NCBI RefSeq assembly: GCF_019931275.1
Contig: NZ_JAIOTY010000002.1
Coordinates: forward strand, 1,452,631-1,516,630
DNA length: 64,000 nt
DNA from: Nitratidesulfovibrio sp. SRB-5
Lineage (GTDB): Bacteria > Desulfobacterota > Desulfovibrionia > Desulfovibrionales > Desulfovibrionaceae
Direction of reading: 5' to 3'
Below are positions 28,901-44,649 of this stretch, in pieces. The translations under genes were made by a program, and so were the position numbers. Position 1 is the first letter of the stretch, and each line of letters starts with the position of its first letter. The notes beneath the pieces were generated by a model. That model was not told where the DNA came from. It did no database searches and saw only the letters and a list, made by a program, of their open reading frames with translations.

Positions 28901-28998
28901 GCCCACGCCTCGATGGGCACGAGATCGACGCCCAGCCCGCACAGAGCGACACCCGCCCCAAGCACACAGGACATCTTCAGGAATTGTCGTCTTCGCAT
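25960..28998 (-). CDS. fdhA: Formate dehydrogenase catalytic subunit FdhA, selenoprotein (FdhAB type)
   Basis: A 1012-residue catalytic subunit with selenocysteine 194 encoded by TGA at 28419-28417 (context ARV-Sec-HGPTVPA). The N-terminus MRRRQFLKMS is a Tat signal, followed by CCYCSVGC for the [4Fe-4S] cluster. Downstream SFGRGAMTNHWIDIQ and the rest of the molybdopterin-binding domains match the first fdhA closely. It is followed 10 bases later by fdhB. The enzyme would oxidise formate in the periplasm with a W or Mo bis-MGD cofactor. Two diverged but complete copies suggest different metal preference or growth conditions rather than simple redundancy. Confidence 0.96.
28384..28400 (-). 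promoter_or_regulatory. SECIS-like hairpin of second fdhA
   Basis: The same 17 bases as in the first fdhA (CGGCTCTGGCAGAGTCG on the mRNA strand), at the same distance from the UGA, although flanking third-codon positions differ. Conservation of the stem supports selection on RNA structure. Confidence 0.7.
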
Positions 28999-29603: not shown

Positions 29604-30647
29604 ATGCAAGGTCACGAGCACGGTCTTTCGATTGTCCCGGTCCACGAAGCCGTGGGCATGATGCTGTGTCACGACATGACGCGCATCATCCCCGGCGTTG
29701 AAAAGGGGCCGGGGTTCCGCAAGGGGCACATCATCGCCCCAGGGGACATCCCCCTCCTTCTGCAAATGGGGAAGGAGCACGTCTACGCCCTGCGCCTTGG
29801 CGCGGGCCAACTGCATGAAGACGATGCCGCCATGCGTCTGGCGCGCCTTGTCGGCGGTGCGGGTGTGGCCCCGGAAGCCAGGTGCGAGGGGCGGGTCAAC
29901 CTTGTCGCCGAACACGACGGGCTGTTGCGCGTCGATGTTCCCGCCCTTGGCCGTCTGAACGGCCTGGGCGAACTTGCCGTGTCCACGCTGCACGGCCTGT
30001 GCGCGGTGCGCGCGGGCCAGATGGTGGCGGGCATGCGCGTCATCCCCCTCATTGTCCACGAACAACTGCTGCACGAAGCGGAACACGCCCTTGCGGGTGC
30101 GCCCGTGGTTTCCGTGCTGCCCTTTCGCCGTGCCCGCGTGGGCATGGTGACCACCGGCAGCGAGGTGTTCCACGGTCGCATCCAGGACAAGTTCGGCCCC
30201 GTGGTGCGCCGCAAGTTTGCCGAACTCGGCAGCGAGGTGGTGCGCCAGGTGCTGGTGGCCGACGACCGTGACGCCACGGCCCGGGCCATCCGCGAACTGG
30301 TGGACGAGGGGGCGGACATGGTCGTCGTCACCGGCGGCATGTCCGTGGACCCCGACGACCAGACCCCGGCGGGCATCAGGGCCGCCGGGGCGCGCGTCGT
30401 CGCATACGGGGCCCCGGTGCTGCCGGGCTCCATGTTCATGCTGGCGTATCTCGGCGAGGTGCCCGTCATGGGCCTTCCCGGGTGTGTCATGTATCACCGG
30501 GCGTCGATCTTCGACCTCGTGGCGCCCCGGCTGCTGGCCGGGCTTGCCGTCACGCGGGAGGACATCATCGCGCTCGGTCATGGCGGCCTGTGCCTCGGCT
30601 GCCAGGAATGCCGGTATCCCGCCTGCCCGTTCGGCAAGGGCGCGTAG
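29604..30647 (+). CDS. Molybdopterin-binding (MoeA/MoaB-like) protein
   Basis: A 347-residue protein whose central part is a MoaB/Mog molybdopterin-binding fold: VGMVTTGSEVFHG, VVVTGGMSVDPDDQTP and VMGLPGCVMYH are the usual motifs for binding and adenylylating or metalating molybdopterin. The N-terminus (SIVPVHEAVGMMLCHDMT) resembles the MoeA start, but the full MoeA domain set is not evident. The C-terminus carries CLGCQECRYPACPFGKGA, a four-Cys motif that may bind metal. GGAG lies about 9 bases before the ATG at 29604. It sits 137 bases before mop, so a role in providing its cofactor is likely. Confidence 0.88.
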   Translation: MQGHEHGLSIVPVHEAVGMMLCHDMTRIIPGVEKGPGFRKGHIIAPGDIPLLLQMGKEHVYALRLGAGQLHEDDAAMRLARLVGGAGVAPEARCEGRVNLVAEHDGLLRVDVPALGRLNGLGELAVSTLHGLCAVRAGQMVAGMRVIPLIVHEQLLHEAEHALAGAPVVSVLPFRRARVGMVTTGSEVFHGRIQDKFGPVVRRKFAELGSEVVRQVLVADDRDATARAIRELVDEGADMVVVTGGMSVDPDDQTPAGIRAAGARVVAYGAPVLPGSMFMLAYLGEVPVMGLPGCVMYHRASIFDLVAPRLLAGLAVTREDIIALGHGGLCLGCQECRYPACPFGKGA

Positions 30648-30784
30648 CCCCGCCGGACCGGCAGCACGGGAGGGGCGGCGGCCAGCCGCCCATGCAGGGA
30701 AGGGCGAATCACTCGCCCGCGACGGAAAGGGCGGCATGCCCGCCCGCGCAACATGCAACGGACAGATCCACGGAGGCCAGGCTC

Positions 30785-33502
30785 ATGATCAACAAGCATT
30801 TCATCGTCAACGGCATACCCCGCAACCTTGTCGTCGATCCGGAAGCGACGCTGGCGGACGTGCTGCGCGGACAGTTGCTGCTCACCGGCGTCAAGGTGGG
30901 CTGCGGCGAAGGCCAGTGCGGCGCGTGCAGTGTCATCCTTGACGGCAAGGTGGTCCGCTCGTGCGCGTACAAGATGCGCCGCCTGCCCGACGGGGCCTCG
31001 GTGACCACCATCGAAGGCGTGGGCAGCCCCGACTGCCTGCACCCGCTGCAACTGGCGTGGACGGCCCACGGCGGCGCGCAGTGCGGCTTCTGCACGCCGG
31101 GCTTCATCGTTTCGGCCAGGCAGTTGCTGGAAGAAAACAAGAACCCCAGCCGCGACGACGTGCGCGACTGGTTCCAGAAGCACCGCAACGTCTGCCGCTG
31201 CACCGGCTACAAGCCTCTGGTCGATGCGGTCATGGACGCCGCCAAGGTGCTGCGCGGCGAGATGAGTGCCGACGACCTCTGCTTCAAGATTCCCGCCGAT
31301 GGCCGCATCTGGGGATCGAAGTACCCCCGCCCCTCCGCCATTGCCAAGGTAACGGGCACCTGCGACTACGGTGCGGACCTTGGCCTGAAGATGCCCTCCG
31401 ATGCGCTGCACCTTGCGTTGGTGCAGGCGGAAGTGTCGCACGCGAAAATCCTGTCCATCGACACCTCCGAAGCGATGAAGATGCCCGGCGTGCACAGCGT
31501 GCTCACCCACAAGGACGTCAAGGGCAAGAACCGCATCACCGGCCTGATCACCTTCCCCTCCAACAAGGGCGACGGCTGGGACCGGCCCATCCTGTGCGAC
31601 GAGAAGGTGTTCCAGTACGGTGACGCCCTGGCTATCGTGTGCGCCGACAGCGAAAAGCACGCCCGCGCCGCCGCCGAAAAGGTGAAGGTGCAGCTGGAAG
31701 AACTGCCCGCCTACATGAGCGCCCCGGCGGCCATGGCTGAAGACGCCATGGAAATCCATCCCGGCACGCCCAACGTGTACTTCATCCAGAACATCGCCAA
31801 GGGCGCGGACACCAAGCCCGTCTTCGACGGGGCCGACGTGGTGGTGGAAGGCGACTACTACGTGGGCCGCCAGCCGCACCTGCCCATCGAGCCGGACGTG
31901 GGCTTTGCCTACACCGACGGCGAAGGGCGCCTGGTCATCCACTCCAAGTCCATCGGCCTGCACCTGCACCTGTACATGATCGCCCCCGGCCTTGGCATCG
32001 AGCCTGAAAAGATCGTCATGGTGCAGAACCCGGCGGGCGGCACCTTCGGCTACAAGTTCAGCCCCACCATGGAAGCCCTGGTGGGCGTGGCGGCCATGGC
32101 CACCGGGCGTCCGGTGCACCTGCGCTACAACTACCGCCAGCAGCAGAACTACACCGGCAAGCGTTCGCCGTTCTTCTTCAACGTGCGCTACGCCGCCGAC
32201 AAGACCGGCAAGATCAAGGCCATGGAAACCGACTGGACCGTGGACCACGGCCCTTACTCCGAGTTCGGCGACCTTTTGACCCTGCGCGGCGCGCAGTTCG
32301 CCGGGGCGGGCTACGGCATCGAGAGCATCCGGGGCCAGGGCCGCACGGTGTGCACCAACCACGCCTGGGGTTCGGCCTTCCGCGGCTACGGCGCGCCGGA
32401 AAGCGAGTTCCCGTCCGAAGTGCTGATGGACGAACTGGCCGAAAAGCTGGGCATGGACCCGCTGGAACTGCGCTACATCAACGTGTACCGCAAGGGCGAC
32501 ACCAACCCCACCGGGCAGGATCCGGAAGTGTACAGCCTGCCGGAAATGATCGACATCCTGCGGCCCAAGTACAAGGCGGCGCTGGATGCGGCCAAGGCAG
32601 GTTCCACGGCGGCGGTCAAGAAGGGCGTGGGCGTTGCCGTGGGCGTGTACGGCTGCGGCCTTGACGGGCCGGACACCTCGGAATGCGATGCCGAACTGAA
32701 CCCCGACGGCACCGTGACCATCTACAACTGCTGGGAAGACCACGGCCAGGGCGCGGACATGGGCACCCTGGGCACCGCCCACGAGGCGCTGCGTCCGCTG
32801 GGCATCGCCCCGCAGAACATCCGCCTGGTGCTCAACGACACCAGCAAGGCTCCCAACAGCGGCCCGGCGGGCGGCAGCCGGTCGCAGTACGTCACCGGCA
32901 ACGCCGTGCGCGTGGCCTGCGAAAACCTGGTGGAAGCCATGCGCAAGCCCGGCGGCTTCCGCACCTACCAGGAAATGGTGGATGAAAAGATCGCCACCAA
33001 GCATCGCGGCGCCTGGACGGCGGCGGGCACCCACTGCGACGAAAACGCGCAGGGCAAGCCCTTCACCGCGTACATGTACGGCGTGTTCATGGCCGAAGTG
33101 ACCGTGGAGGTCGCCACCGGCAAGACCACCGTGGACAAGCTGACCATGGTGGCCGACATCGGCAAGATCAACAACAAGCTGCTGGTTGACGGCCAGCTGT
33201 ACGGCGGGTTGGCCCAGGGCATCGGCCTGGCCCTGTCCGAAGACTACGAAGACCTCAAGAAGCACGCCACCATGGCGGGCGCGGGCGTTCCGTACATCAA
33301 GGACATTCCCGACAACATCGAACTGATCTACGTGGAAACCCCGCGCGGCGACGGCCCGTTCGGCGCGTCGGGCGTGGGCGAACTGCCGCTCACCGTGCCG
33401 CATGCGGCCATCATCAACGGCATCCACAAGGCGTGCGGCGTGCGCATCCGTCACCTGCCCGCCCTGCCGGAAAAGGTGCTGGCGGGCCTGAAGGGCGCGT
33501 AA
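30785..33502 (+). CDS. mop: Aldehyde oxidoreductase, molybdenum iron-sulfur (Mop)
   Basis: A 905-residue xanthine-oxidase-family enzyme almost collinear with D. gigas Mop (907 residues). The plant-type [2Fe-2S] cysteines are C40, C45, C48 and C60; the second cluster uses C100, C103, C137 and C139, as I recall for D. gigas. The molybdenum domain ends with GASGVGELPL, whose Glu (about 866) is the catalytic base. It oxidises aldehydes to acids with a molybdopterin cytosine dinucleotide cofactor and has no FAD domain. No signal peptide. GGAGG lies upstream of the ATG at 30785. The following genes include XdhC- and MocA-like proteins expected to finish its cofactor. Confidence 0.97.
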   Translation: MINKHFIVNGIPRNLVVDPEATLADVLRGQLLLTGVKVGCGEGQCGACSVILDGKVVRSCAYKMRRLPDGASVTTIEGVGSPDCLHPLQLAWTAHGGAQCGFCTPGFIVSARQLLEENKNPSRDDVRDWFQKHRNVCRCTGYKPLVDAVMDAAKVLRGEMSADDLCFKIPADGRIWGSKYPRPSAIAKVTGTCDYGADLGLKMPSDALHLALVQAEVSHAKILSIDTSEAMKMPGVHSVLTHKDVKGKNRITGLITFPSNKGDGWDRPILCDEKVFQYGDALAIVCADSEKHARAAAEKVKVQLEELPAYMSAPAAMAEDAMEIHPGTPNVYFIQNIAKGADTKPVFDGADVVVEGDYYVGRQPHLPIEPDVGFAYTDGEGRLVIHSKSIGLHLHLYMIAPGLGIEPEKIVMVQNPAGGTFGYKFSPTMEALVGVAAMATGRPVHLRYNYRQQQNYTGKRSPFFFNVRYAADKTGKIKAMETDWTVDHGPYSEFGDLLTLRGAQFAGAGYGIESIRGQGRTVCTNHAWGSAFRGYGAPESEFPSEVLMDELAEKLGMDPLELRYINVYRKGDTNPTGQDPEVYSLPEMIDILRPKYKAALDAAKAGSTAAVKKGVGVAVGVYGCGLDGPDTSECDAELNPDGTVTIYNCWEDHGQGADMGTLGTAHEALRPLGIAPQNIRLVLNDTSKAPNSGPAGGSRSQYVTGNAVRVACENLVEAMRKPGGFRTYQEMVDEKIATKHRGAWTAAGTHCDENAQGKPFTAYMYGVFMAEVTVEVATGKTTVDKLTMVADIGKINNKLLVDGQLYGGLAQGIGLALSEDYEDLKKHATMAGAGVPYIKDIPDNIELIYVETPRGDGPFGASGVGELPLTVPHAAIINGIHKACGVRIRHLPALPEKVLAGLKGA

Positions 33503-33517
33503 GACGCAAGGAAAACG

Positions 33518-33556
33518 GCCCCGGGGTGGACGCGCTCCGCCCCGGGGCATCATTTT
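33518..33556 (+). terminator. Hairpin between mop and the accessory genes (partial terminator or attenuator)
   Basis: A stem of about 13 bp (33518-33530 with 33536-33548, one G-T pair) with a 5-base loop is followed by ATCATTTT. The next gene starts 57 bases later in the same direction, so partial termination would let mop be expressed above its accessory genes. Confidence 0.55.
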
Positions 33557-33612
33557 CGGGGCCGTGCGGATGCCGCACGGTCCGCACGTGAGGCCAGCAG
33601 AGGGAGCACGGC

Positions 33613-36333
33613 ATGGACCAGACCTCGCTGCGCGACTGGGAGTCGCGCTGCATACAGGAAGAACCGCCCCGCTGTCAGGCGGCGTGTCCGCTGCACGTGG
33701 ACGCGCGCGCCTTTCTGGAACATGCGGCGCAAGGCCGCTGGCGCGAGGCGCGCGGCGTGCTGGAACGCACCATGCCCCTGCCCGGCGTGCTGGCCCGGCT
33801 GTGCGAGGCCCCGTGTGAGGCGGCCTGCCTGCGCCGGGAGGCGGGCGGCACCATTGCCGTGGGCGCGCTGGAGCGGGCCTGCGCCGCACTGTCCGTCCCG
33901 GCGGCGGACCCGCGCCCCCTGCCGGGGCGGGGACTGCGCGCCGCCGTGCTGGGCGGCGGTCTGGCCGCGCTGACCGTGGCCTGGGATCTGGCGAAGAAGG
34001 GCCACGCGGTGACCCTGGCCGGGTGGCTGGAAGACGGGGAAAAGCGTGGGGACGGGAGTGACGCCCCCGCCGGTGAGGCCGGTGAGGCCGGTGAGGCTGA
34101 CGGGGCCGCACGGATGGCCGCCGCTGGCCGCCTTGCCGCCATCCCCCCGGACGTGTTGCCGCCGGATGCCCTGCGCAAGGAACTGGACAGGCTGGCCGGA
34201 CTCAAGGTGCGCTTTGCCGCGCCCGTGGCCCCCACGGCGGCGGTGCTGGAAGAGATGCGCGCCGCGCACGGGGCGGTGTTCGTGGCGTGGAGCCCGGCGG
34301 CTGCACGCGCGTTGGGCCTGCCCGACCGCAGCCGGTGTGACGCGCTGACCCTGGCCCACCCTGATCTGCCCGGCGTGTTCTGCGGCGGCTGGCCCGCAGA
34401 CGGCGTGGCAGGTGCGGCGCGCTGCATCGACGAGGCCGCAGATGGCCGCCATGCCGCCACGTCCATGGATCGCCACCTGACGGGTGTGTCGCTGTCGGCG
34501 GGCCGTGAACGGCAGGGACCGTTCGAAACGCGCTTGTTCACCAGCCTGGAAGGCGTGCAGGCGATGACGCCCGTGGCGCTGCCCGCGTTGCCGCCCGCAG
34601 GGCAGGGGGCAGGCGGCCTCGCGCCCGAAGCCGCCAAGGGGCCCGATACCCCCGACTTCCCGTATCGGGAAGAGGCGTCCCGTTGCCTGCAATGCCAGTG
34701 TCTGGAATGCGTCAAGGTGTGCCCGTATCTGGAAAAGTACGGTGAATACCCCAAAAAGCACGCCCGGCGCATCTACAACAACCTGGCCATCGTCAAGGGC
34801 GTGCATCAGGCCAACCGGTTCATCAATTCGTGCAGTCTGTGCGGGCTGTGCGGCACGGTGTGCCCCACGGGGTTCGACATGGCCCCGCTGTGCCACGAGG
34901 CGCGGCGCACACTGGTGCATGACGGCAAGATGCCGCCCTCCACCCACGAATTCGCGCTGGACGACATGGCCTTCAGCAACGGGCCGCATGCCGCGTTGCT
35001 GCGCGCCCCGGCAGGGGCACAGGCCTGCGCGTGGCTGTTCCTGCCCGGTTGCCAGCTTGCGGCGTCCGCGCCGGACAGGGTGGCGCAGGCGTGGGGTATT
35101 CTGGCCGACCGGCTGTCCGGTGGCACGGGTATTGCCCTGCGCTGCTGCGGGGCACCCGCGCTGTGGGCCGGGCGCGACGACCTGGCCGCTGCCGCCGCCG
35201 AGGAACTGCGTGACGGGTGGAACGCCATGGGACGCCCCACGCTGGTGGTGGGGTGCCCGTCCTGCGCCACCACGTTGCGCACGCTGCTGCCGGACCTGCC
35301 CCAGACCATGCTGTGGTCCGTGCTGGCGGAGTACGGCGTTGCCGGGCAGACGACGCCCGCACCGGAGGCGCTTACCCTGCACGACCCCTGCGCCGCGCGC
35401 GGGGACGAACGCCTGCGGACCACGGTGCGCGGACTGCTGGCCGCGCGCGGGGTGTCGGTGCACGAGCCGGACCTGACCGGACCACACACCGAATGCTGCG
35501 GCTACGGCGGCCTGATGGCCGAGGCCGACCCCGCCCTTGCCCGCACCGTCATCCAGCGCAGGGCCGATGCGTCGGACCTGCCCTTCGTCACCTACTGCGC
35601 CATGTGTCGCGACCGGCTGGCCGAAGCGGGCAGCCCCGCCAGCCACCTGCTGGACCTGCTGCTGCCCCCGTTGCCAGGCGGCAATCCGGACCCGGCGGCA
35701 CCCGGCCCGCACATCACCGCCCGCCAGGAGAACCGCGCCCGGCTGCGCGACCGCCTGCTGCGCGAGGTTTACGGCGAAACCCCGCCCGATGCCGCGCCCG
35801 ATGCCGTGCGGGAAGCGGCCCTGCGCATCGGGCCGGACATGCGCGTGGTCATGGAGCGGCGACGCATCCTTGACGACGACCTGCGCGGCGTGATCGCCGA
35901 GGCCGAACGTGCCGGGCGCTATTTCATCGACACCGATACCGGCATGCGTCTGGCCTGTTTGCGCCGGGTGCGCGTCACCCATTGGGTCGGGTACGAGCCC
36001 GAGCCCGGTGGCGCTGGGAATGGGGCAGGGGGCGATGCCGTGCCCGTCCACGCCATCCGGCAGGCCTATGCCCACCGCATGGTGTTGCCGCAGGGACCGC
36101 CCGCCGGAGGCTGGAAAGAGTCGCCCCATGAACCGGCCTATCTGCCCGCGTCGGGCAACTGGACCTGCGCCTGCGGCGGCGCGCCGCGCCCGCTGTCGGT
36201 GGAGCTGACCTACCTTGGCAGCACCTTCAACGTGCGGTTGCTGACCTGCCCGGACTGTGGGCAGGTGCTGGTGGACGAGGCCCTGGCGCTGGGCAAGATG
36301 CTGGAAGTGGAACAGTTGCTGGAGGACAAGTGA
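33613..36333 (+). CDS. Pyridine nucleotide-disulfide oxidoreductase/dicluster-binding protein with CCG domains, fused to a zinc-ribbon module
   Basis: A 906-residue multidomain redox protein. An N-terminal domain like the Fe-S domain of GltD-type proteins has CQAACPLH and CEAPCEAAC; a single nucleotide-binding fold follows (GGGLAALTVAWDLAKKG). Two [4Fe-4S] motifs, CLQCQCLECVKVCP and CSLCGLCGTVCP, come near residues 360-420. A heterodisulfide-reductase-like CCG region follows (CCGAPALW, CPSCATTL, ECCGYGGL). The last 65 residues form a zinc ribbon (CACGG, CPDCGQVLV) that I recall as a separate gene (DVU_1557 family) in D. vulgaris, so this looks like an in-frame fusion. GEA and other repeats expand the nucleotide-binding region. 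It probably moves electrons for the mop system. Confidence 0.82.
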   Translation: MDQTSLRDWESRCIQEEPPRCQAACPLHVDARAFLEHAAQGRWREARGVLERTMPLPGVLARLCEAPCEAACLRREAGGTIAVGALERACAALSVPAADPRPLPGRGLRAAVLGGGLAALTVAWDLAKKGHAVTLAGWLEDGEKRGDGSDAPAGEAGEAGEADGAARMAAAGRLAAIPPDVLPPDALRKELDRLAGLKVRFAAPVAPTAAVLEEMRAAHGAVFVAWSPAAARALGLPDRSRCDALTLAHPDLPGVFCGGWPADGVAGAARCIDEAADGRHAATSMDRHLTGVSLSAGRERQGPFETRLFTSLEGVQAMTPVALPALPPAGQGAGGLAPEAAKGPDTPDFPYREEASRCLQCQCLECVKVCPYLEKYGEYPKKHARRIYNNLAIVKGVHQANRFINSCSLCGLCGTVCPTGFDMAPLCHEARRTLVHDGKMPPSTHEFALDDMAFSNGPHAALLRAPAGAQACAWLFLPGCQLAASAPDRVAQAWGILADRLSGGTGIALRCCGAPALWAGRDDLAAAAAEELRDGWNAMGRPTLVVGCPSCATTLRTLLPDLPQTMLWSVLAEYGVAGQTTPAPEALTLHDPCAARGDERLRTTVRGLLAARGVSVHEPDLTGPHTECCGYGGLMAEADPALARTVIQRRADASDLPFVTYCAMCRDRLAEAGSPASHLLDLLLPPLPGGNPDPAAPGPHITARQENRARLRDRLLREVYGETPPDAAPDAVREAALRIGPDMRVVMERRRILDDDLRGVIAEAERAGRYFIDTDTGMRLACLRRVRVTHWVGYEPEPGGAGNGAGGDAVPVHAIRQAYAHRMVLPQGPPAGGWKESPHEPAYLPASGNWTCACGGAPRPLSVELTYLGSTFNVRLLTCPDCGQVLVDEALALGKMLEVEQLLEDK

Positions 36334-37343
36334 CCGTGCCGTCCGGCCTTGATGCTGCGGCCTTCGTGCCGGGTGGAGCCGCCGCGCCTGCGGGGGATGC
36401 TGCCCTTGCCGGAGATAATGCCCCAGTCGCCGGGCCGCGCGGCCCGTGTGCCCCCCCGGCGCTGCGCGGTCCGTGGGAACCCTCGGCGCTGCGCGGTCCG
36501 TGGGAGCATCCGGCGCTGCGCGCGGTGGCCGGTGCCACGCTGCGCCCCGGCGGGGTGGCCCTGACCTGGCGCGGGTTGGAACTGGCGAGGCAATTGACGC
36601 TGTGGCCCCACAACGCGCGGGTGCTGGACCTGGGCTGCGGCCCCGGTGAAACCGTGGCCCTGCTGCGCGAAGGGGGCATGGCGGCGGTGGGGCTGGATAT
36701 TTCCGCCAGCCTGCTGGCCGAGGCACTGGCACGGAATGGGCGAATGCCCCTTATTCGGGCCGATGCCGGGTGCGATGCCGGATGCGGTGCCGGATGCGGT
36801 GCGGGGGCCTCTGGGGGTGCTGCCCCCGGCCTGCCGCTGCGCACCGCCAGTCTTGATGGCGTGTTCTGCGAGTGCGTGCTCTCCGTGCTGCCGCAGCGCC
36901 AGGGCGTGCTGGCGGAACTGGCGCGGGTGCTGCGCCCCGGCGGGGTGCTGGTCTGGACCGACCTGTATGTGCGTCCGGGCCGTGCGGCTGACGTGTGGCG
37001 TGGCCCAGGCGGTTGCCCAAGCGGTTGGCCAGACGGCTGCGCGGAAAGTTGCGCGGACGGCGGCGAATCCCGGTGCTCCGGTCCGCAGCCCGGCGTCCTT
37101 TCCTGCCGGGCCGGGGCCATGTCGCGCGCGGGCATGGAAGCCATGCTACGCCGTGCCGGGTTCACGGTGCTGGCGTTCGAGGATCACAGCCGCCTGCTGG
37201 CGGAAATGGCGGGCAGGTTGCTGTTTGCCGGGGCCGACCCGGCGGAACTGTTCGGGTGCGGCGGCGCTGGCGGCGGGCGGCCCGGCTACGCGCTGCTGCT
37301 GGCCCGGCGCGACGATGCTGCATCACGGGAGTATGCGCCATGA
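36330..37343 (+). CDS. Class I SAM-dependent methyltransferase (DVU_1556-like)
   Basis: A 337-residue protein with the SAM-binding motif VLDLGCGPGETVALL near residues 96-110, then VGLDIS and LARVLRPGGVLVWTD, the usual Rossmann methyltransferase order. The substrate is unknown. It starts at GTG 36330 in a GTGA overlap with the previous gene, with GGAGG 5 bases upstream. Repeats have expanded it: a 27-bp duplication near residue 50 (ALRGPWE repeated) and a 12-bp repeat giving a Cys-rich stretch (DAGCDAGCGAGCGAG) near residue 150. The next gene overlaps its stop by ATGA. Confidence 0.82.
   Translation: MTVPSGLDAAAFVPGGAAAPAGDAALAGDNAPVAGPRGPCAPPALRGPWEPSALRGPWEHPALRAVAGATLRPGGVALTWRGLELARQLTLWPHNARVLDLGCGPGETVALLREGGMAAVGLDISASLLAEALARNGRMPLIRADAGCDAGCGAGCGAGASGGAAPGLPLRTASLDGVFCECVLSVLPQRQGVLAELARVLRPGGVLVWTDLYVRPGRAADVWRGPGGCPSGWPDGCAESCADGGESRCSGPQPGVLSCRAGAMSRAGMEAMLRRAGFTVLAFEDHSRLLAEMAGRLLFAGADPAELFGCGGAGGGRPGYALLLARRDDAASREYAP
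36457..36522. repeat. 27-bp in-frame duplication in the methyltransferase gene
   Basis: About 2.4 copies of a 27-bp unit beginning cggcgctgcgcggtccgtgg. Nine codons per unit, so the frame is kept. Confidence 0.85.
36762..36797. repeat. 12-bp in-frame repeat encoding a Cys-rich stretch
   Basis: Three copies of gatgccggatgc-like units, each adding four residues of the type DAGC or GAGC to the methyltransferase. Confidence 0.85.
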
Positions 37344-37819
37344 GCGACGAAGCGTTCGGACGGGTACTGGCCCTTGGGGCCGCCGGGTACTGTTGCACCC
37401 AGATCATGGTCCGGCTGCTGCTGGACGTGCAGGGGCGCGATGCGTCCGGTGACGGGTTGGGCGACGGGCGAGACGCGGTGCGCGCCGCTGGCGGGCTGTG
37501 CCGGGGCTTCGGCCTGTCGGAAGGCACCTGCGGCATCCTGCTGGGCGGCTGCATGGCCATGGGCCTGTGCGCGGCCAAAGGCCACGTCGCAGAGGAACCC
37601 CACGAGGCGCTGGAGGCCATGACCACGGAATTTGCCGAATGGTTCCGCGAGCGCACCGCCCCCAGCGGAGGCATCTCCTGCGGGGCCATTCTGGGGGACA
37701 GTGGCGGAGGGCGGCCGGACTTCGGCAAGTGCCACGGCCTGCTGCTGGAGGCGCACGGCAAGATGTTCGAGGTGCTGGCGGCCTACGGCGTGGACCCCAC
37801 GCAGCCGCGCGAGGGCTAG
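37340..37819 (+). CDS. C_GCAxxG_C_C family protein (DVU_1555-like)
   Basis: A 159-residue Cys-rich protein. The N-terminal GYCCTQIM and the central GGLCRGFGLSEGTCGILLGGCMAMG fit the C_GCAxxG_C_C family, redox or metal-binding proteins of unknown reaction. Later cysteines are in GGISCGAILGD and DFGKCHGL. It starts in an ATGA overlap with the methyltransferase. In its place among radical SAM, methyltransferase and ligase genes it is probably a redox or metal carrier. No signal peptide or membrane segment is seen. Confidence 0.82.
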   Translation: MSDEAFGRVLALGAAGYCCTQIMVRLLLDVQGRDASGDGLGDGRDAVRAAGGLCRGFGLSEGTCGILLGGCMAMGLCAAKGHVAEEPHEALEAMTTEFAEWFRERTAPSGGISCGAILGDSGGGRPDFGKCHGLLLEAHGKMFEVLAAYGVDPTQPREG

Positions 37820-37824
37820 GCGGC

Positions 37825-39603
37825 ATGGCCGGGCGCGGAAATTTTTCCGTGGATTGCGGCTGTTCCGTGGCCGGGCAGGCCGGGGGCGAGGCGGCGGCAA
37901 CGGCGCATCGGCGGGTGCTGGCCCGCACCGCCAGCGTGTGCCCGGTATGCCTTGGCCCGGCCCCGGCGGAGCGGGTGGCCGTGGGCGATACGGTGCTGCT
38001 GGTCAAGCGTTGCCCGGAGCACGGCGAATTTTCCGCCCCGGTATGGCGGGGCGAGCCCGCCTTCACCGGCTGGGTGCGCCCCAAGATTCCCACCGCCCGG
38101 CGCGGCCCCGGCACGGAACGGGTGCTGGGTTGCCCCAATGATTGCGGACTGTGCCCGGACCACGGCCAGCACACCTGCACCCTGCTCATCGAAGTGACGC
38201 AGCGCTGCAACCTGCGCTGCCCGGTGTGCTTCGCGTCGGCAGGACAGAGTGGGGGGCTGGGCGGAGAGCCGGGCGGTGCACGGGGTGACGAGCGGCACGC
38301 GGGCGATGCCCGCGCATCCCTGCCCGGCGACGACCCCACCCTGGGCGAACTGGTGGCCCGGCTTGCCGTGCTGCGCCCGCGCGCGGGCGATGCCAACATC
38401 CAGCTTTCCGGCGGCGAACCCACCCTGCGCGACGACCTGCCGCAACTCGTCACCGCCGTGCGCGGGCTGGGCTATCCCTTCGTGCAACTGAATACCAACG
38501 GCCTGCGCCTTGCGCGAGAGGCGGGCTACGCCGCGCGCCTTGCCGCCGCAGGGCTGGATTCGGTGTTCCTGCAATTCGACGGGCCGGACGACGCGGCCAC
38601 CGCCCGGCTGCGCGGCCTGCCCCTGCACGCGGACAAGGTGCGCGCCGTGGAGGCCTGCGCGGCGGCGGGGTTGGGCATTGTGCTGGTGTGCACGGTGGCG
38701 CGGGGCGTCAACGACCATTGCCTGGGCGACATCGTGCGCTTCGGCCTGGCGCGGGTGCCCGTGGTGCGCGGGGCGCATTTCCAGCCGGTGAGCTTCTTTG
38801 GCCGGTACGAGGGCTTCGGCGGGCCCGCTGGTTCTCCCGCTGATGCCGATGGACTGCGCGAGGCGGCCCGCATCACCCTGCCGGAGGTCATGCGCGCGGT
38901 GTGCGAGCAGACAGGGGGGCTGATTCCCTTGTCTCAGCTGCATCCGCCGGGATGCGAGCACGCCCAGTGCTCCTTCAGTGGCACGTTCATGGCCCACGAG
39001 GACGGCAGGCTGGAACCGGCGGGCGGGGCCTGCTGCGGGACTGGCGGCAATGGCGGGAGCGGGGGAAAGGGGACGCCGTCTGGCGGCATGGCCCCGGTCC
39101 CCATCCCTGCGGCGTTGGGCGCGGAGCGGGCGCGGGCCTTCGTGCGCCGCCAGTGGAGGGCGCCCGGTCCGGCTGCCGCCGGGGACGGCCCCGTCGGACC
39201 GGGCGGTCCCGTAGGACAGGGCGGTCCCGTCGGACAGGGCGGTCCCGTCGGACAGGGCGGACCGGGCGGACAGGGCGGACAGGGTGGCCTGGGCGATAAG
39301 GACGGTACGGACGGGGGCGTCCTCGCCACGCCGCCGCGCGACGACTTCGAGCGCTTCCTGGCGCGGGCCGGGCGGCGGTTCACCGTGTCGGGCATGGCCT
39401 TTCAGGATGCCTGGACCCTGGATACCGAACGGCTGCGCGGCTGCTGCATCCATGTGGCCGCACCCGACGGACGCATGGTGCCGTTCTGCGCGTGGAACCT
39501 GACCTCGACGAACGGCACGCCCCTGCACCGCAACGGCGCGCCGACCAGAACCGGCGTGGCGGGCGGCGGTGGCATCGGTTCCGGCGAAGGGGAGGGCGCA
39601 TGA
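37825..39603 (+). CDS. Radical SAM protein of the mop accessory cluster (DVU_1554-like)
   Basis: A 592-residue radical SAM enzyme. The SAM/[4Fe-4S] motif is CNLRCPVC near residue 128. Before it lie two Cys clusters, CPVC...CPEHGEF and CPNDCGLCPDHGQHTC, likely metal sites, as in the TrsS-type radical SAM group I recall from this context. LSGGEPTLRDDLP and LNTNGLRLA are typical radical SAM barrel motifs. The C-terminal part is interrupted by a collagen-like GPVGQG repeat (DNA 39192-39293) before a conserved-looking end (FQDAWTLDTERLRGCCIHV). ATG 37825 is close behind the C_GCAxxG_C_C gene, and the end overlaps the ligase start region. Substrate unknown. Confidence 0.83.
   Translation: MAGRGNFSVDCGCSVAGQAGGEAAATAHRRVLARTASVCPVCLGPAPAERVAVGDTVLLVKRCPEHGEFSAPVWRGEPAFTGWVRPKIPTARRGPGTERVLGCPNDCGLCPDHGQHTCTLLIEVTQRCNLRCPVCFASAGQSGGLGGEPGGARGDERHAGDARASLPGDDPTLGELVARLAVLRPRAGDANIQLSGGEPTLRDDLPQLVTAVRGLGYPFVQLNTNGLRLAREAGYAARLAAAGLDSVFLQFDGPDDAATARLRGLPLHADKVRAVEACAAAGLGIVLVCTVARGVNDHCLGDIVRFGLARVPVVRGAHFQPVSFFGRYEGFGGPAGSPADADGLREAARITLPEVMRAVCEQTGGLIPLSQLHPPGCEHAQCSFSGTFMAHEDGRLEPAGGACCGTGGNGGSGGKGTPSGGMAPVPIPAALGAERARAFVRRQWRAPGPAAAGDGPVGPGGPVGQGGPVGQGGPVGQGGPGGQGGQGGLGDKDGTDGGVLATPPRDDFERFLARAGRRFTVSGMAFQDAWTLDTERLRGCCIHVAAPDGRMVPFCAWNLTSTNGTPLHRNGAPTRTGVAGGGGIGSGEGEGA
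39192..39293. repeat. 18-bp in-frame repeat in the radical SAM gene
   Basis: About five units of ggcggtcccgtcggacag and variants, encoding GGPVGQ repeats. Six codons per unit, so the frame is kept. Confidence 0.85.
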
Positions 39604-39739
39604 CCCGGAACATCGCGTCCCCGGCATCGCCGGAAGACGGCGCGATCGCGCCGTGCCCCGCGTGTGCCGCGCCCACTGGGCATGGAGCATATGGGGAGCA
39701 TGGGGCGCACGCAGGCGCCCCGCGCCCACGGCACGGGAC

Positions 39740-40789
39740 GTGGCCCGGTCCCCGCTGGACCCGTGGCTGGCTGCGCGGCTGTCCATCCCACTCGGCACGC
39801 TTTCCCCGGCCACGGTGCGCGCCCGGCAGGACGATCTGCTGCGCAAGGCGGTGCGCCACGCTCTGGATGCGCCGTTCTACCGTGACAGGCTGGGTGGGCT
39901 GCCTTTGCCGCGCACGCTGGACGATCTCGCGGGCCTGCCCTTCACCATGCCCGACGACCTGTGCGAGGGGGGCGATGCCCTGCTGCGCGTGGCCGACGAC
40001 GCCGTGGCCCGCATCGTCACCTTGCCCACATCGGGAAGTACGGGGGCGCCCAAGCGGCTGCGCTTCAGCGATGCGGACATCGAGCGCACCGTGGATTTCT
40101 TTGCCGTGGGCATGACCACCCTGTGCCGCCCCGGCGACGTGGTGGCCATCTTCATGCCCGGCCAGCGGCCCGACAGCGTGGGCGACCTGCTGGACAGGGG
40201 CCTGCGCCGCGCGGGCATACAGCCGGTGCTGCTGCCCCCGGCGGCCAGCGGGGCGGAACATGCCGCCCGGTTGGCGCAAACCGGGGCGCAGGTGTTCGTG
40301 GCAACGCCCACCCAGGCCCGCGCAATTGCCGACGCCGTGCTGGCGGGGCAAGGTCCTGCACCCCGTCCGCGCGCCTGCCTGCTGAGCGCGGAGGCCACCC
40401 CGCCGGAAACGGCGGACAGGGTACGCGCGGCCCTGGGCTGCGAGGTGTTCGACCACTGGGGCATGACCGAAACCGGCTACGGCGGCGGCGTGGAATGCGC
40501 CGCCCATCACGGCTTTCACCTGCGCGAGGCGGACATCCATGTGGAAATCGTCCACCCGCTCACCGGCGCGCCCCTGCCGGACGGCCAGACCGGCGAGGTG
40601 GTGGTGACCACCCTTGCCGCGGAAGCCATGGTGCTGCTGCGCTACCGCACGGGAGACGCGGCAGCCATGCTGCCCCCGCCGTGCCGTTGCGGCAGCCCGC
40701 TGCGGCGGCTGGGGCCGGTGCTGGGGCGCATTCGCCGTTACGGAAACCACTGGGACATCATCACCCTTGCCAAGGGGGCACGACCATGA
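39740..40789 (+). CDS. AMP-dependent CoA ligase-like protein (DVU_1553-like), 5' end possibly frameshifted
   Basis: An ANL-superfamily adenylate-forming protein like short phenylacetate-CoA ligases: P-loop TLPTSGSTGAPKRLRF, then LLSAEATP, HWGMTETGYGGG and YRTGDAA. It ends soon after (RIRRYGNHWDIITLAK), so most of the C-terminal lid domain is missing. The start is uncertain. ATG 39600 overlaps the radical SAM stop as ATGA, as at neighbouring junctions, but its frame (with CPACAAP) runs into the body only through a frameshift near 39670-39740, where gcatggagcatatgggg-type repeats occur. GTG 39740 (MARSPLDPWLAARL) is the first start in the body frame with family-like sequence (349 residues); an ATG at 39569 is also in that frame. 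Confidence 0.72.
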   Translation: MARSPLDPWLAARLSIPLGTLSPATVRARQDDLLRKAVRHALDAPFYRDRLGGLPLPRTLDDLAGLPFTMPDDLCEGGDALLRVADDAVARIVTLPTSGSTGAPKRLRFSDADIERTVDFFAVGMTTLCRPGDVVAIFMPGQRPDSVGDLLDRGLRRAGIQPVLLPPAASGAEHAARLAQTGAQVFVATPTQARAIADAVLAGQGPAPRPRACLLSAEATPPETADRVRAALGCEVFDHWGMTETGYGGGVECAAHHGFHLREADIHVEIVHPLTGAPLPDGQTGEVVVTTLAAEAMVLLRYRTGDAAAMLPPPCRCGSPLRRLGPVLGRIRRYGNHWDIITLAKGARP

Positions 40790-41874
40790 CGCAATTCTTT
40801 GGACAACTGGCCGACGCGCTGGAGCGCGACGGCGTTGCCGTGCTGGCCACCATCGTCACGGCGGAAGGTTCCGCCCCGCGCATGGCTGGGGCGCGGTTGT
40901 TCGTGCGGGGCGACGGCCAATCCTTCGAAGGAACCGTGGGCGGGGGCATTCTGGAAGCCCGCGTGCTGGATGCCTGCCGAACCGCCCTGGACGACGGGCT
41001 GGCCCGGCTGCTCACCTTCGACCTGTCCGCCGACGAGGCCGCCGGGTCGGACATGATCTGCGGGGGCAGGGTGCGGCTGTACGTGGAGCCGTTGCGCGTC
41101 GCAGCCTGTCCGCAACTGGCCCCGTTGCTGCGCGAAACGGACCGCCTGACCATGCAGGGGCGGCGTTGCGTGCTGGTGAACATGCTGCGGCCCGACGCCG
41201 CACCCGACTGCCGCCGCCTGCTTCTGGCGGGGGAGGGGGCAGCGGCAGAAGCCAACGGCGACCTGACCCTGGAGCCGACCACGCTGGCCGAACTGCGCGA
41301 CGCCGTGGCCACGGCCAGCGGCCCGCTGTGCGTGGAGGCGGGCGGCCTGTCCCTGCTGGCAGACCCTGTGGCCTCGCCGGGGCGGGTGGTCATTGCCGGT
41401 GGCGGGCACGTGGGGCGGCAGGTGGCCCTGATGGCCTCGCTGGCAGGGTTCCGGGTCACCGTGCTGGATGACCGGCCAGATTTCGCCAAAGCCGATCGGT
41501 TGCCCGGCGCGGACGAGGTGCGCTGCGTCACCCTCGGCGGCGACTGGCTGGAGGGTGTGGGAATGCACGAGGACTGCTATGTGGTCATCGTCACGCGCGG
41601 GCACCGCAACGACGGCGAAGTGCTGGCCAGCGCCCTGCGCACGCCGGCCCGCTACGTGGGCATGATTGGCAGCCGCCGCAAGCGTGACGCCGTGTACCGC
41701 AGGCTGGAAGAGGCGGGCACCCCGCGCGCGGCCATCGAGCGGGTGCATTCGCCCATCGGGCTGGACATCGGCGCGGAAACGCCCGAGGAAATAGCCGTGA
41801 GCATCGTGGCGGAGCTGGTGCAGGCGCGAGCCGCCAGCCGGGTGCGCCGCTCCATTGCGCCCATGCAGGCCTGA
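40786..41874 (+). CDS. xdhC: XdhC/CoxI-family molybdenum cofactor maturation protein
   Basis: A 362-residue XdhC-family protein with both halves: the N-terminal XdhC_CoxI domain (VTAEGSAPRMAGARLFV, DMICGGRVRLYVEPL, whose Cys-Gly-Gly is typical) and the C-terminal Rossmann domain (VVIAGGGHVGRQVALMASLAG, YVGMIGSRRKRDAVYRRL, HSPIGLDIGAETPEEIAVSI). XdhC binds Mo cofactor and promotes its sulfuration and insertion into xanthine-dehydrogenase-family enzymes, so Mop is the obvious client. It starts in an ATGA overlap with the ligase gene. A 151-base gap follows before the transferase gene. Confidence 0.92.
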   Translation: MTQFFGQLADALERDGVAVLATIVTAEGSAPRMAGARLFVRGDGQSFEGTVGGGILEARVLDACRTALDDGLARLLTFDLSADEAAGSDMICGGRVRLYVEPLRVAACPQLAPLLRETDRLTMQGRRCVLVNMLRPDAAPDCRRLLLAGEGAAAEANGDLTLEPTTLAELRDAVATASGPLCVEAGGLSLLADPVASPGRVVIAGGGHVGRQVALMASLAGFRVTVLDDRPDFAKADRLPGADEVRCVTLGGDWLEGVGMHEDCYVVIVTRGHRNDGEVLASALRTPARYVGMIGSRRKRDAVYRRLEEAGTPRAAIERVHSPIGLDIGAETPEEIAVSIVAELVQARAASRVRRSIAPMQA

Positions 41875-42025
41875 AGCACTGCGGGGCTGGCATCGCCGCA
41901 AGGCGTGCCTGATCGTTGTCCGACACGGAGCAGGGAATGTCATCTGAAGCAATGGATGATTCGGCGGTTTCGATAGCGGGCGGTTCAGCAATCGAAAGTG
42001 TCGAATGAATTCCGAGGGAGAGGTA

Positions 42026-43606
42026 ATGCAGGCAGTTGCAACCGGCGTGACTCCACCAGCGCTCTCTCGGTTCCTCCCGTACCCGGTCGTTGGCGTGGTG
42101 CTGGCTGCGGGCGCGTCGTCGCGCATGGCTCCGGACTTCAAGCCGTTGCTGGACCTGTGCGGCGCCACGGTGCTGGCCCGTTGCGTGGAGATGTTCCGGC
42201 AGGCGGGCGTGGCGGATGTGCTGGTGGTCACCGGGCATCGCGCGGACGAGGTGGCGGCGGAGGCCGCACGGCTGGGCGTGCCCACGGTGAACAACCCGGC
42301 CTGGCGCGAAGGAGGCATGTTCTCCTCGGTACGCGCGGGGCTGGAGGCTGTGGTCCGGCGCGGCGGAGAAGCTGGCGGAATTGGCGGAGTTGGTGGCGGT
42401 GAGGGGGCTGGAGCCCTGCTGCTGCCGGTGGATGCCGCGCTGGTGCGCCCCCTGACCGTGCGCCTGCTGCTGGAGCACGCCGCCGTGCGTACTGACCGGG
42501 TGCTGCTGCCGGTGTTCGATGGGCGGTGGGGGCATCCGCCGCTGCTGCCTCCATCGGTATTGCCGATCGTCCTGGCGGACAGCGGCGAGGGTGGCCTGCG
42601 CGGCGCGCTGCACCGGCTGGGGCCGCAGGCGCTGGACGAGGTCGGCGTGCCCGACAGGTTCATCCTGCGCGACATGGACACGCCGGACGACTACCGCGCG
42701 GCCTGCGCCCATTGGACTACCCGCGAAGTACCCACCCCGCAGGAGGCGCGCACGCTGCTGGCGGTGCGGGGCATTCCGCCCGGCGGCGTCGCCCATGCCG
42801 AGGGGGTGGCCGCCGTGGCCGTGCGCCTGGCCGATGCCCTGAACGCCGCGCGCGGCATGGCCGTGCAGGATGCATGGCCGGGAGGACAACCCGGCACGGG
42901 CGCGGGGCTGGATCGTGTCCTAGGCAGCGAACGGGGCAGCGAACGGGGCAGCGAACGGGACAGCGAACTGGACAGCGAACTGACCGAGTCCGCCGCCCTG
43001 CTGCACGACATCGCCAAGGGCCAGCCCCGCCACGAGGCCGCCGGGGGCGCGTTGCTGCGTGAACTGGGCTTTTCCGGCGTGGCGGACATCGTCAGCGCGC
43101 ACAGGGATACCACGCTTGTCGACGGCCAGCCCCTGACCGAACGGGAAGTGGTGTACTTCGCGGACAAGCTGGTGCGCTGCCACATCGTGGTGGACGTTGA
43201 AAGCCGCTTTGGCGAGAAACTGGCCCAATGGCGCCACGACCCGGACGCGGCCAGCGCCATAGAAGGGCGGATGCGCCGGGCGCTGGCCCTGCGTGCGCGC
43301 ATCGAGCGAGAGGCAGGGCTACCGCTGGCGGACATCCTGCACCCGCTGGCCGTAGGCCAGCCCGCGTGGGAACCGGACGCTGGCGAAGCCGGGCTGTGCG
43401 CTGGCCCCGGATCGCATACGGGGGCCGGATCATGCACGGGAGCCAGGCAGGCCGCTTCATGCACCGCCAGCACGTCCGAGAGTTCGCAAACGCACCCGTC
43501 GCCGGGTACGGCACCTGATTCGCCACCCCTTCCGGCGTCCGGTTTGGCGCCCGGTCCGGCACTTGGCCCCGTGCGGCAATCGGCAGAGGACGAGAACCTC
43601 CCATGA
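42026..43606 (+). CDS. MobA/MocA-like nucleotidyltransferase with HD domain (DVU_1551-like)
   Basis: A 526-residue fusion. Residues about 20-215 form a MobA-like NTP transferase: VVGVVLAAGASSRMAPDFKPLL, GGMFSSVRAGL, LLPVDAALV and HPPLLP, the MocA pattern for attaching CMP to molybdopterin, which Mop needs as MCD. An HD domain follows (HAEGVAAVAVRLADAL, LLHDIAKGQPRHE, VSAHRD). Between them a 12-bp repeat encodes GSERGSERGSER. The last 90 residues are low-complexity. ATG 42026 is preferred because GGGAGAGG lies just upstream; ATG 42005 has none. Confidence 0.86.
   Translation: MQAVATGVTPPALSRFLPYPVVGVVLAAGASSRMAPDFKPLLDLCGATVLARCVEMFRQAGVADVLVVTGHRADEVAAEAARLGVPTVNNPAWREGGMFSSVRAGLEAVVRRGGEAGGIGGVGGGEGAGALLLPVDAALVRPLTVRLLLEHAAVRTDRVLLPVFDGRWGHPPLLPPSVLPIVLADSGEGGLRGALHRLGPQALDEVGVPDRFILRDMDTPDDYRAACAHWTTREVPTPQEARTLLAVRGIPPGGVAHAEGVAAVAVRLADALNAARGMAVQDAWPGGQPGTGAGLDRVLGSERGSERGSERDSELDSELTESAALLHDIAKGQPRHEAAGGALLRELGFSGVADIVSAHRDTTLVDGQPLTEREVVYFADKLVRCHIVVDVESRFGEKLAQWRHDPDAASAIEGRMRRALALRARIEREAGLPLADILHPLAVGQPAWEPDAGEAGLCAGPGSHTGAGSCTGARQAASCTASTSESSQTHPSPGTAPDSPPLPASGLAPGPALGPVRQSAEDENLP
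42923..42982. repeat. 12-bp in-frame repeat in the transferase gene
   Basis: Five units of ggcagcgaacgg and variants encode GSER/DSEL tetrapeptides between the transferase and HD domains. Confidence 0.9.
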
Positions 43607-44649
43607 CCGCGCCGCCCCCCGTCATTCTGCCGGGCGTCCCGCCGGATATCCTGCTGTTCCGCCATGCGGCCACGGACATGGGCGACGGCCCGCGCCGGTA
43701 CATCGGCCGCACCGAAGTGCCCTTGTCCCGAGAGGGCCGTGCGCAGGCGGCGGCATGGCGGGCGCGTCTGGCCGGGCTGAACGTGGTGGGGGCCTATGCC
43801 TCTCCGCTGGAGCGGGCGCGGGAAACCGCCCGGCTCATGCTGGGACTGGGGGATGCCCCGGCGGGGCCGGACAGGCCAGGCAAATCAGACAGGCCAGACA
43901 GGCCAGACAGACCAGACAGGCCAGACAGATCGGACGGGCCGGACCCGCTTGCTGTGCCGGGTATGTCGGGGGCGTCTGGCGAATCTGGCGAATCTGGCGA
44001 ATTCGGCGTGCCGGGCAGCGCCGTCATCTCCCTCACCATTCTGGACGATCTGGCCGAGATGGACCTTGGGGAATGGGAAGGGCTGTTGCAGATGCAGGTG
44101 CGGGAGGCCCGGCCCGATGCCTACGCACGGCGCGGGCGCGAACCCTGGACCTTTCGTCCGCCGGGCGGGGAATGCTGCGCGGACGTGGCCGCGCGTGGGC
44201 TGCGGGCGCTGGCCGCCATGTGGCGGGACTGGGCCGCAACGGAGGGCGGGGCCGGGGCGATGCCCTGCGCCGGTGAGGCGGCATGTGCTGAAGGGGCAGG
44301 CCGCGCCGCGGGGCGGCACCCGGCCACGAACGACAGCGTCGGGCACGGGCCCCCATCTTTCATCGTGGCCGTGAGCCACGCCGGGCTGATCCGTTCCGTA
44401 TTGTGCGCGCTGGGCCACATGGGCCGCGAGGATTTGCTCACCCTGCCGGTGCGCCACCTGCATTGCGTGCGCTTGCGCCATCACGAGTCCGGGGTGCGTG
44501 ATGCTTCTGCGGTGCCGTCATCGACGGGGGCAGGGCCAGGGACGGGGACAACGTCAGGGGTGGGGGCAAAGCCAGCGGCGGGGACAACGGCAGCCGCGTC
44601 AGGGGCCTCCGCGTCATGGCGGGTGGTCACGCCGGACTGGCAGCCGTAG
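43603..44649 (+). CDS. Histidine phosphatase family protein (DVU_1550-like)
   Basis: A 348-residue phosphoglycerate-mutase-like phosphatase. The catalytic motif is LLFRHAATD (the usual Gly after Arg-His is Ala), followed by GRTEVPLSREGRAQA, ASPLERARETA and the second catalytic His in VAVSHAGLIRSV. CobC-like members dephosphorylate cofactor precursors, which would suit the context, but this is inference. It begins in an ATGA overlap with the transferase gene and is the last gene of the cluster. Two repeats (DRP and SGE/GES triplets) and a Gly/Thr-rich C-terminus enlarge it well beyond the usual 200 residues. Confidence 0.85.
   Translation: MTAPPPVILPGVPPDILLFRHAATDMGDGPRRYIGRTEVPLSREGRAQAAAWRARLAGLNVVGAYASPLERARETARLMLGLGDAPAGPDRPGKSDRPDRPDRPDRPDRSDGPDPLAVPGMSGASGESGESGEFGVPGSAVISLTILDDLAEMDLGEWEGLLQMQVREARPDAYARRGREPWTFRPPGGECCADVAARGLRALAAMWRDWAATEGGAGAMPCAGEAACAEGAGRAAGRHPATNDSVGHGPPSFIVAVSHAGLIRSVLCALGHMGREDLLTLPVRHLHCVRLRHHESGVRDASAVPSSTGAGPGTGTTSGVGAKPAAGTTAAASGASASWRVVTPDWQP
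43869..44001. repeat. Two 9-bp in-frame repeat arrays in the histidine phosphatase gene
   Basis: Gacaggcca-type units (43869-43934) encode DRP triplets; three tctggcgaa units (43975-44001) encode SGE triplets. Both keep the frame. Confidence 0.88.

Follow-up and report, generated by a model that had tools for sequence, protein, structure and literature searches.

The 64,000-nucleotide stretch of Nitratidesulfovibrio sp. SRB-5 DNA analyzed here (the window) contains, at positions 29604-44649, a run of genes built around mop, the gene for a predicted aldehyde oxidoreductase of the molybdopterin cytosine dinucleotide (MCD) type, and the conservation of this gene set far exceeds chance. Since Mop is nearly always accompanied by the same uncharacterised genes, it seems to be part of a larger machine. 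In the reading that we favor, the operon would encode a single anaerobic aldehyde-oxidising machine, organized in three layers. In the first layer, Mop would turn an aldehyde into an acid, with MoeA-like, MocA-HD and XdhC proteins supplying and inserting the cytosine-dinucleotide molybdenum cofactor. In the second, electrons would pass from Mop to the adjacent protein, which combines Fer4, FAD, dicluster and CCG motifs with a DUF7479 end, assisted by a C_GCAxxG_C_C redox protein (CGA). The third layer would be a biosynthetic sub-module, in which the radical S-adenosylmethionine (SAM) enzyme TrsS may apply Tes-type chemistry to functionalise an unactivated alkyl carbon, a methyltransferase (MTase) may methylate the product, and a ligase may adenylate the carboxylate for attachment to, or use by, the CCG/DUF7479 partner rather than the Mop pterin. 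The first two layers together are probable, and we assign the complete three-layered reading a probability of about one in three.

Co-occurrence of Mop and TrsS was followed in three profiles, comprising 148 phylum genomes, 199 order-level genomes (completeness at least 90%) and 200 Negativicutes genomes. The curated cut-offs are 1100 bits for Mop (NF045668) and 490 bits for TrsS (NF045646). In the phylum set, TrsS was above its cut-off in 14 genomes (plus one split gene, in G039) and Mop in 9 (plus one copy truncated by a contig end, in G104); all of the Mop genomes encoded TrsS, and the five TrsS genomes devoid of Mop hold a divergent TrsS subfamily. The order set, from which four weak Tes-like matches were excluded, comprised 134 genomes with both genes, 4 with Mop alone, 3 with TrsS alone and 58 with neither (Fisher p 2e-41, a value that ignores relatedness); the corresponding numbers in Negativicutes were 25, 1, 3 and 171. 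Four of the seven exceptions in the order set coincided with a contig end at the site concerned (G210, G334, G279 and G208), while the orphan Mop of G160 (locus L212) and the tandem TrsS of G321 look genuine; the seventh is G338. The tandem pair of G321 (L215) is accompanied by a ligase gene, in a genome with no Mop match at the threshold used. Several genera of the order set contain both-positive as well as both-negative species, which implies that the two genes were repeatedly lost or gained together. Ten TrsS loci, the majority of them picked for having no intact Mop alongside, were traced further: seven of the genomes encode Mop above cut-off, one has a contig-end fragment, one has fragments and weaker relatives only, and a Geobacter metagenome-assembled genome has no Mop. 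The co-occurrence thus holds even for non-adjacent loci. The original prediction, that the whole unit is selected together, was borne out by a Mop/TrsS pairing stronger than it had guessed, and for the radical SAM gene the opposite pattern, a family found mostly in Mop-less genomes, was not observed.

The composition of the set was examined by a scan of genome contigs, which yielded at least 569 TrsS relatives, of which the best 80 loci were read. Among the 64 loci with full context in clade A (as distinct from the Mop-less clade B, described below), the CCG protein was present in 63, the ligase in 61, the MTase in 60, Mop in 58 and CGA in 51, and the numbers for MocA-HD, XdhC, the phosphatase and the MoeA-like protein were 40, 39, 35 and 22, respectively. 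These counts define a core of Mop, CCG protein, DUF7479, MTase, CGA, TrsS and ligase, with cofactor genes that vary. The same order recurs in records of Thermodesulfobacteriota, Bacillota, Chloroflexota, Campylobacterota and Pseudomonadota. The gene set is known by name, as the DVU_155x families of NCBIfam and TrsS cover nearly all of its members, and the window genes exceed each of the curated cut-offs (NF045645, NF045646, NF045663-NF045669). The locus numbers in the family names (DVU_1551, 1553, 1555, 1556 and 1557), together with DVU_1559 as Mop (PMC10920352), agree with the D. vulgaris order DVU_1550-1560 that had been suggested. These names carry no function, text searches of the literature found no function assigned to the gene set, and the text of the D. 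vulgaris paper on randomly barcoded transposon sequencing (RB-TnSeq) contains no mention of DVU155x phenotypes. The present analysis adds the strict pairing with Mop, the Mop-less clade, the conserved tail of DUF7479 and the full Tes site. By inspection, genes for alcohol and aldehyde dehydrogenases and for proteins resembling the tungsten-type aldehyde:ferredoxin oxidoreductase recur around clade A, the latter lying in the vicinity of either the TrsS/Mop locus or Mop in L080, L106, L129, L146, L206 and L207.

Mop itself (30779..33502, + strand) scores 1704.6 bits against NF045668, with residues 5-905 of 907 aligned, and its top PDB matches and closest solved structures are the enzymes of D. 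gigas (1SIJ/1VLB) and D. desulfuricans (1DGJ); from this similarity we infer an aldehyde-oxidising MCD enzyme. The D. gigas protein counts among the structures that founded the xanthine oxidase family, and to our knowledge its flavin partner has never been fixed. One of the genomes (G227) is taken to be that of D. gigas, since its protein is identical to the 1SIJ chain at 206 of the 206 residues tested. This Mop belongs to the same family at full length (1547 bits) and is encoded in the same operon (L221), which reads MoeA-like protein, Mop, a nitroreductase-like protein (by inspection), CCG protein, DUF7479, MTase, CGA, TrsS, ligase, XdhC and phosphatase. In contrast, D. gigas Mop was published as a single enzyme with a putative flavodoxin partner, the adjoining genes being unmentioned in the available text.

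The D. gigas enzyme also bears on cofactor maturation. Its structure was solved at 1.28 Å with ordinary MCD, according to the description in PMC10223205. As D. gigas has the operon and yet an ordinary cofactor, a lasting change to the pterin or a side chain of Mop by the TrsS module is unlikely. A new maturation route for Mop had been offered as one option, and in the form of a permanent modification it is disfavoured by this structure and by the presence of the module in the Mop-less clade. PMC3877041 describes an equatorial oxo ligand with no sulfido required, and since D. gigas encodes XdhC while its Mop works with the oxo ligand, XdhC-dependent sulfuration of Mop is doubtful; the earlier idea that XdhC explains cofactor sulfuration lacks support in that form.

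The gene that follows mop (33613..36333, +; NF045663, 860 bits) encodes a protein with Fer4_20, an FAD/Rossmann motif, a 4Fe-4S dicluster and two CCG (HdrB-type) motifs, with a match to PF02754. The motif CX(n)CCGX(n)CXXC was found in 83 of 83 clade A and 7 of 7 clade B proteins. Unlike xanthine oxidase, Mop has no flavin domain, and flavodoxin is described as a putative partner on the basis of in vitro reconstitution and docking (PMC10223205). Since the CCG protein offers both Fer4_20 and a Rossmann/flavin motif, its sequence makes it a natural candidate for the absent flavin partner, and electron flow from Mop to this protein is suggested by context and homology. In four loci of Chloroflexi (L107, L121, L123 and L154) a DUF364-like protein of ~250 amino acids is encoded between Mop and the CCG gene (by inspection).

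The DVU_1557/DUF7479 redox domain (NF045645) forms the C-terminal part of the partner protein in the window (36157..36333, +), while in most relatives it is a separate gene. It ends in a near-invariant tail (EVEQLLEDK-COOH in the window), and the terminal E(D/E)K-COOH was present in 67 of 68 separate DUF7479 proteins and in all four fusions seen, including that of the window. This conservation indicates strong selection on the C-terminus and would fit either docking or modification. The operon offers no other candidate for a small carrier, and DUF7479 matches no lipoyl domain; sequence searches of known structures gave nothing convincing for DUF7479, with no lipoyl-domain relative among PDB sequences, nor for a 92-amino-acid clade B protein homologous to the end domain of the partner, nor for CGA. 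The latter (37340..37819, +; DVU_1555 family, NF045669/PF09719) has four invariant cysteines, and a Foldseek search with its model retrieved only the split-Soret cytochrome c 1H21, a weak resemblance (E 1.1).

TrsS (37825..39603, +; NF045646, 552.8 bits) belongs to the superfamily of Tes (tetraether lipid synthase, GDGT-MAS), and Tes is its closest solved relative (E 1.6e-67 with the single sequence, 3.3e-127 with a profile). Its predicted model (pLDDT 77, with a weakly modelled low-complexity insertion) superposes on 7TOM with Z 44.5 and 2.3 Å over 403 residues. Invariance of cysteine, histidine and methionine was judged in sets of 14 and 42 sequences and mapped onto 7TOL. The rubredoxin-type CX2C...CX2H site, the N-terminal cluster CX3CX2CX2H, the radical SAM motif CX3CX2C and the ligands of the C-terminal cluster were all invariant. 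Met527 of TrsS (numbered from 37816), likewise invariant, matches the labile Met439 of Tes. Tes MJ0619 (7TOL/7TOM) shares with TrsS its fold, the rubredoxin-type site, both auxiliary clusters, the labile methionine and the radical SAM motif. TrsS differs in the shorter stretch ahead of the C-terminal cluster methionine and in its neighbour, which is an aldehyde oxidase rather than lipid genes. At 297.8 bits it falls below the 450-bit cut-off of the Tes family (NF045702), and it is thus regarded as a Tes relative and not classed as Tes. Because the fold and all of the Tes metal ligands are retained, our best guess is that TrsS performs Tes-type chemistry on an unactivated carbon.

MJ0619 joins archaeal lipid chains by C(sp3)-C(sp3) coupling, and we know of no substrate for bacterial Tes-type relatives. 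MJ0619 was once named a pterin methylase, and modification of the Mop pterin by TrsS was considered and set aside, as the paper on the structure of Tes makes a case against binding of a pterin (PMC9433317) and D. gigas Mop carries ordinary MCD. The low-complexity insertion of the window TrsS consists of GGPVGQ repeats (39190-39310, residues ~455-495), predicted to be disordered, ahead of the C-terminal cluster domain. By inspection, genes for a class V aminotransferase and a protein of ~100 amino acids, which resemble sulfur/selenium supply genes, lie just upstream of TrsS in L096, L113, L126, L138 (Sporomusa) and L209, and distant TrsS/Tes-like genes in L078 and L079 adjoin ketosynthase and acyl-carrier-like genes, possibly of a lipid pathway.

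The ligase is a PaaK-like AMP-forming protein of the DVU_1553 family (39740..40789, +). Its frame is open from 39569, with no in-frame ATG upstream of the homology, and the best start is the GTG at 39740. The AMP-binding N-domain is present (PF00501; NF045666, 391.6 bits), and after the CxCG motif ~33-51 residues remain in the clade of the window versus ~110-135 in most relatives. Judged from the sequence, loss of the lid domain suits an adenylating or degenerate ligase better than a high-flux CoA ligase. The proposal that the ligase activates the acid is thereby weakened as a catabolic role.

Five Mop-less TrsS proteins form their own clade, clade B, in a tree of 100 sequences (SH-aLRT 96, by a quick method), and a clade B profile recovered four more strong members (G414, G356, G503 and G537). 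No Mop was found within the stretches read at these loci, and absence from the genome was checked for the first five members. The loci retain MTase, TrsS and ligase, and most also encode a short CCG protein together with proteins that are DUF7479-like or correspond to the end domain. Neighbours, several of them assigned by inspection, include genes for a TRAP transporter, a corrinoid protein, RACo, a formate-dehydrogenase-like molybdenum enzyme and an HGD-D dehydratase. The existence of clade B suggests that the TrsS/MTase/ligase part is tied to a CCG-type redox partner and not to Mop chemistry as such.

Open reading frame listing and hidden Markov model scans of the window place the whole run on one strand, with all eight genes claimed downstream of mop present in the claimed order. 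The run starts with an accessory MoeA-like/MoCF_biosynth molybdopterin-binding protein (29604..30647, +), ahead of Mop. Besides the genes described above, it comprises the class I SAM MTase of the DVU_1556 family (36330..37343, +; NF045667), the XdhC-family aldehyde oxidoreductase maturation factor (40786..41874, +; NF045664), the fusion of a MobA/MocA-like NTP transferase with an HD domain (42005..43606, +; DVU_1551 family, NF045665) and a branch 1 histidine phosphatase below the CobC cut-off (43603..44649, +). Junctions were expected to be mostly 4-base overlaps; such overlaps exist, but at just 4 of the 8 junctions after mop. They are GTGA at 36330 (CCG protein/MTase) and ATGA at 37340 (MTase/CGA), 40786 (ligase/XdhC) and 43603 (MocA-HD/phosphatase), while gaps of 110, 5 and 130 bases separate Mop from the CCG protein, CGA from TrsS (ATG at 37825) and XdhC from MocA-HD, respectively. 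No sigma-54 promoter match above chance level was found for the operon. Upstream, on the opposite strand, a formate dehydrogenase alpha subunit gene (25960-28998, -) has an in-frame TGA (28417-28419) in the context ARV-U-HGPT, a classic selenocysteine site. The idea of selenoproteins in the operon was rejected, as TrsS, CGA and ligase have no internal in-frame selenocysteine codon in the loci read and the TGA codons sit at gene borders.

Two known systems resemble parts of the operon. In a Clostridium ljungdahlii transcriptome paper, genes for MCD-type aldehyde oxidoreductase, CCG, 4-Cys and C_GCAxxG_C_C proteins are described in tandem, with the nature of the reactions left open and their study urged (PMC5640608). 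The same four redox genes are thus shared, whereas radical SAM enzyme, MTase and ligase are undiscussed in the available part of that paper. A functional precedent for the third layer, by analogy only, is the sHdr-LbpA system, in which, according to PMC6067878 and PMC10332631, CCG-type sHdr proteins act together with a lipoate carrier, for whose assembly there are radical SAM enzymes and a dedicated ligase. Both systems would combine HdrB-like CCG proteins and a small carrier with a ligase and radical SAM enzymes. The systems differ in that no GcvH-like lipoyl carrier was recognised in the window operon, and its radical SAM enzyme is Tes-like and not LipS1/LipS2 or LipA.

Several observations weigh against the three-layered machine. 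The ANL C-terminal lid domain is absent from the ligase in the clade of the window, the flavin motif GxGxx[GA] was found in only 65 of 83 partner proteins, and a few genomes, clearly so G160 (L212), hold Mop without TrsS. The TRAP transporter, corrinoid protein and RACo genes beside clade B loci hint at a metabolic role, and docking alone might account for the conserved tail of DUF7479. The weakest inference in the scheme is that the third layer produces a group destined for the partner, with the conserved EDK tail as a possible site; its product, substrate and modified residue are all putative. A more specific version, in which TrsS, MTase and ligase build a new prosthetic group on the DUF7479/CCG partner at or near that tail, either a swinging arm or a peptide-derived redox cofactor, with a parallel version for other enzymes in the Mop-less clade, is unlikely as formulated. 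In favor of the machine, distances computed for TrsS, the ligase and the CCG protein intercorrelate at r 0.84-0.89, whereas each of the three correlates with Mop only at 0.61-0.72. These values, which carry no correction for the species tree, also reflect shared descent and evolutionary rate, and serve to rank hypotheses rather than as proof; the higher ones suggest that the sub-module has a closer tie to the CCG partner than to Mop.

This co-evolution is not required by the main rival, a pathway to a free small molecule or lipid, in which Mop would make an acid, the ligase would adenylate or CoA-activate it, and TrsS and MTase would convert it into a diffusible lipid, signal or cofactor, the acid being imported in Mop-less clades. 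Such a pathway has a tentative claim, given that TrsS is nearest to a lipid-chain coupling enzyme, that most clade members have a full-length PaaK-like ligase, and that TRAP genes occur in clade B (L203-L205, TRAP-like in L073), together with the dehydrogenase and tungsten-enzyme-like genes near clade A (by inspection). However, no exporter, acyl carrier or scaffold gene conserved with the set was found in the neighbourhoods read, and the operon persisted in the clade of the window after the ligase had lost its lid. Alternatively, the redox accessories might keep or restore the reduced dithiolene of Mop, with radical SAM enzyme, MTase and ligase building something needed for this. The near-obligate Mop/TrsS pairing, the XdhC, MocA and MoeA-like genes, and the inactivation of D. 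gigas Mop by dithiolene oxidation and its reactivation by strong reductants (PMC3877041) all favor such maturation or reactivation, which is rather improbable nonetheless in view of the ordinary MCD described for the 1.28 Å structure (PMC10223205), the TrsS modules without Mop, and G160 with Mop and no module. Degradation of an aldehyde or acid for carbon and energy by Mop, ligase, radical SAM enzyme and MTase in series appears less probable still. The HGD-D dehydratase and BadF-like activase genes that flank L068 and L202, the corrinoid protein and RACo beside L204, the corrinoid protein beside L203 and the iron-type alcohol dehydrogenase-like genes near several clade A loci would fit a catabolic unit, but in clade A such catabolic genes do not belong to the conserved set, the ligase of the window's clade lacks its lid, and Tes-type enzymes use up SAM, which would make them ill-suited to high flux. 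Finally, the whole block is present in Rhodoferax, Rhodocyclaceae and Pleomorphomonas records, suggesting horizontal transfer, and neighbours might be co-transferred with no joint function; the order kept across phyla, the co-occurrence without adjacency and the joint absence from some species of genera where others have both genes make mere passive clustering highly improbable.

In nearly every genome examined, the gene beside Mop thus encodes a likely FAD/Fe-S/CCG partner for the aldehyde oxidoreductase. The operon sets a full Tes-type radical SAM enzyme beside an assayable enzyme, and in the genetically tractable Desulfovibrio both the partner of Mop and the substrate of TrsS are testable questions.

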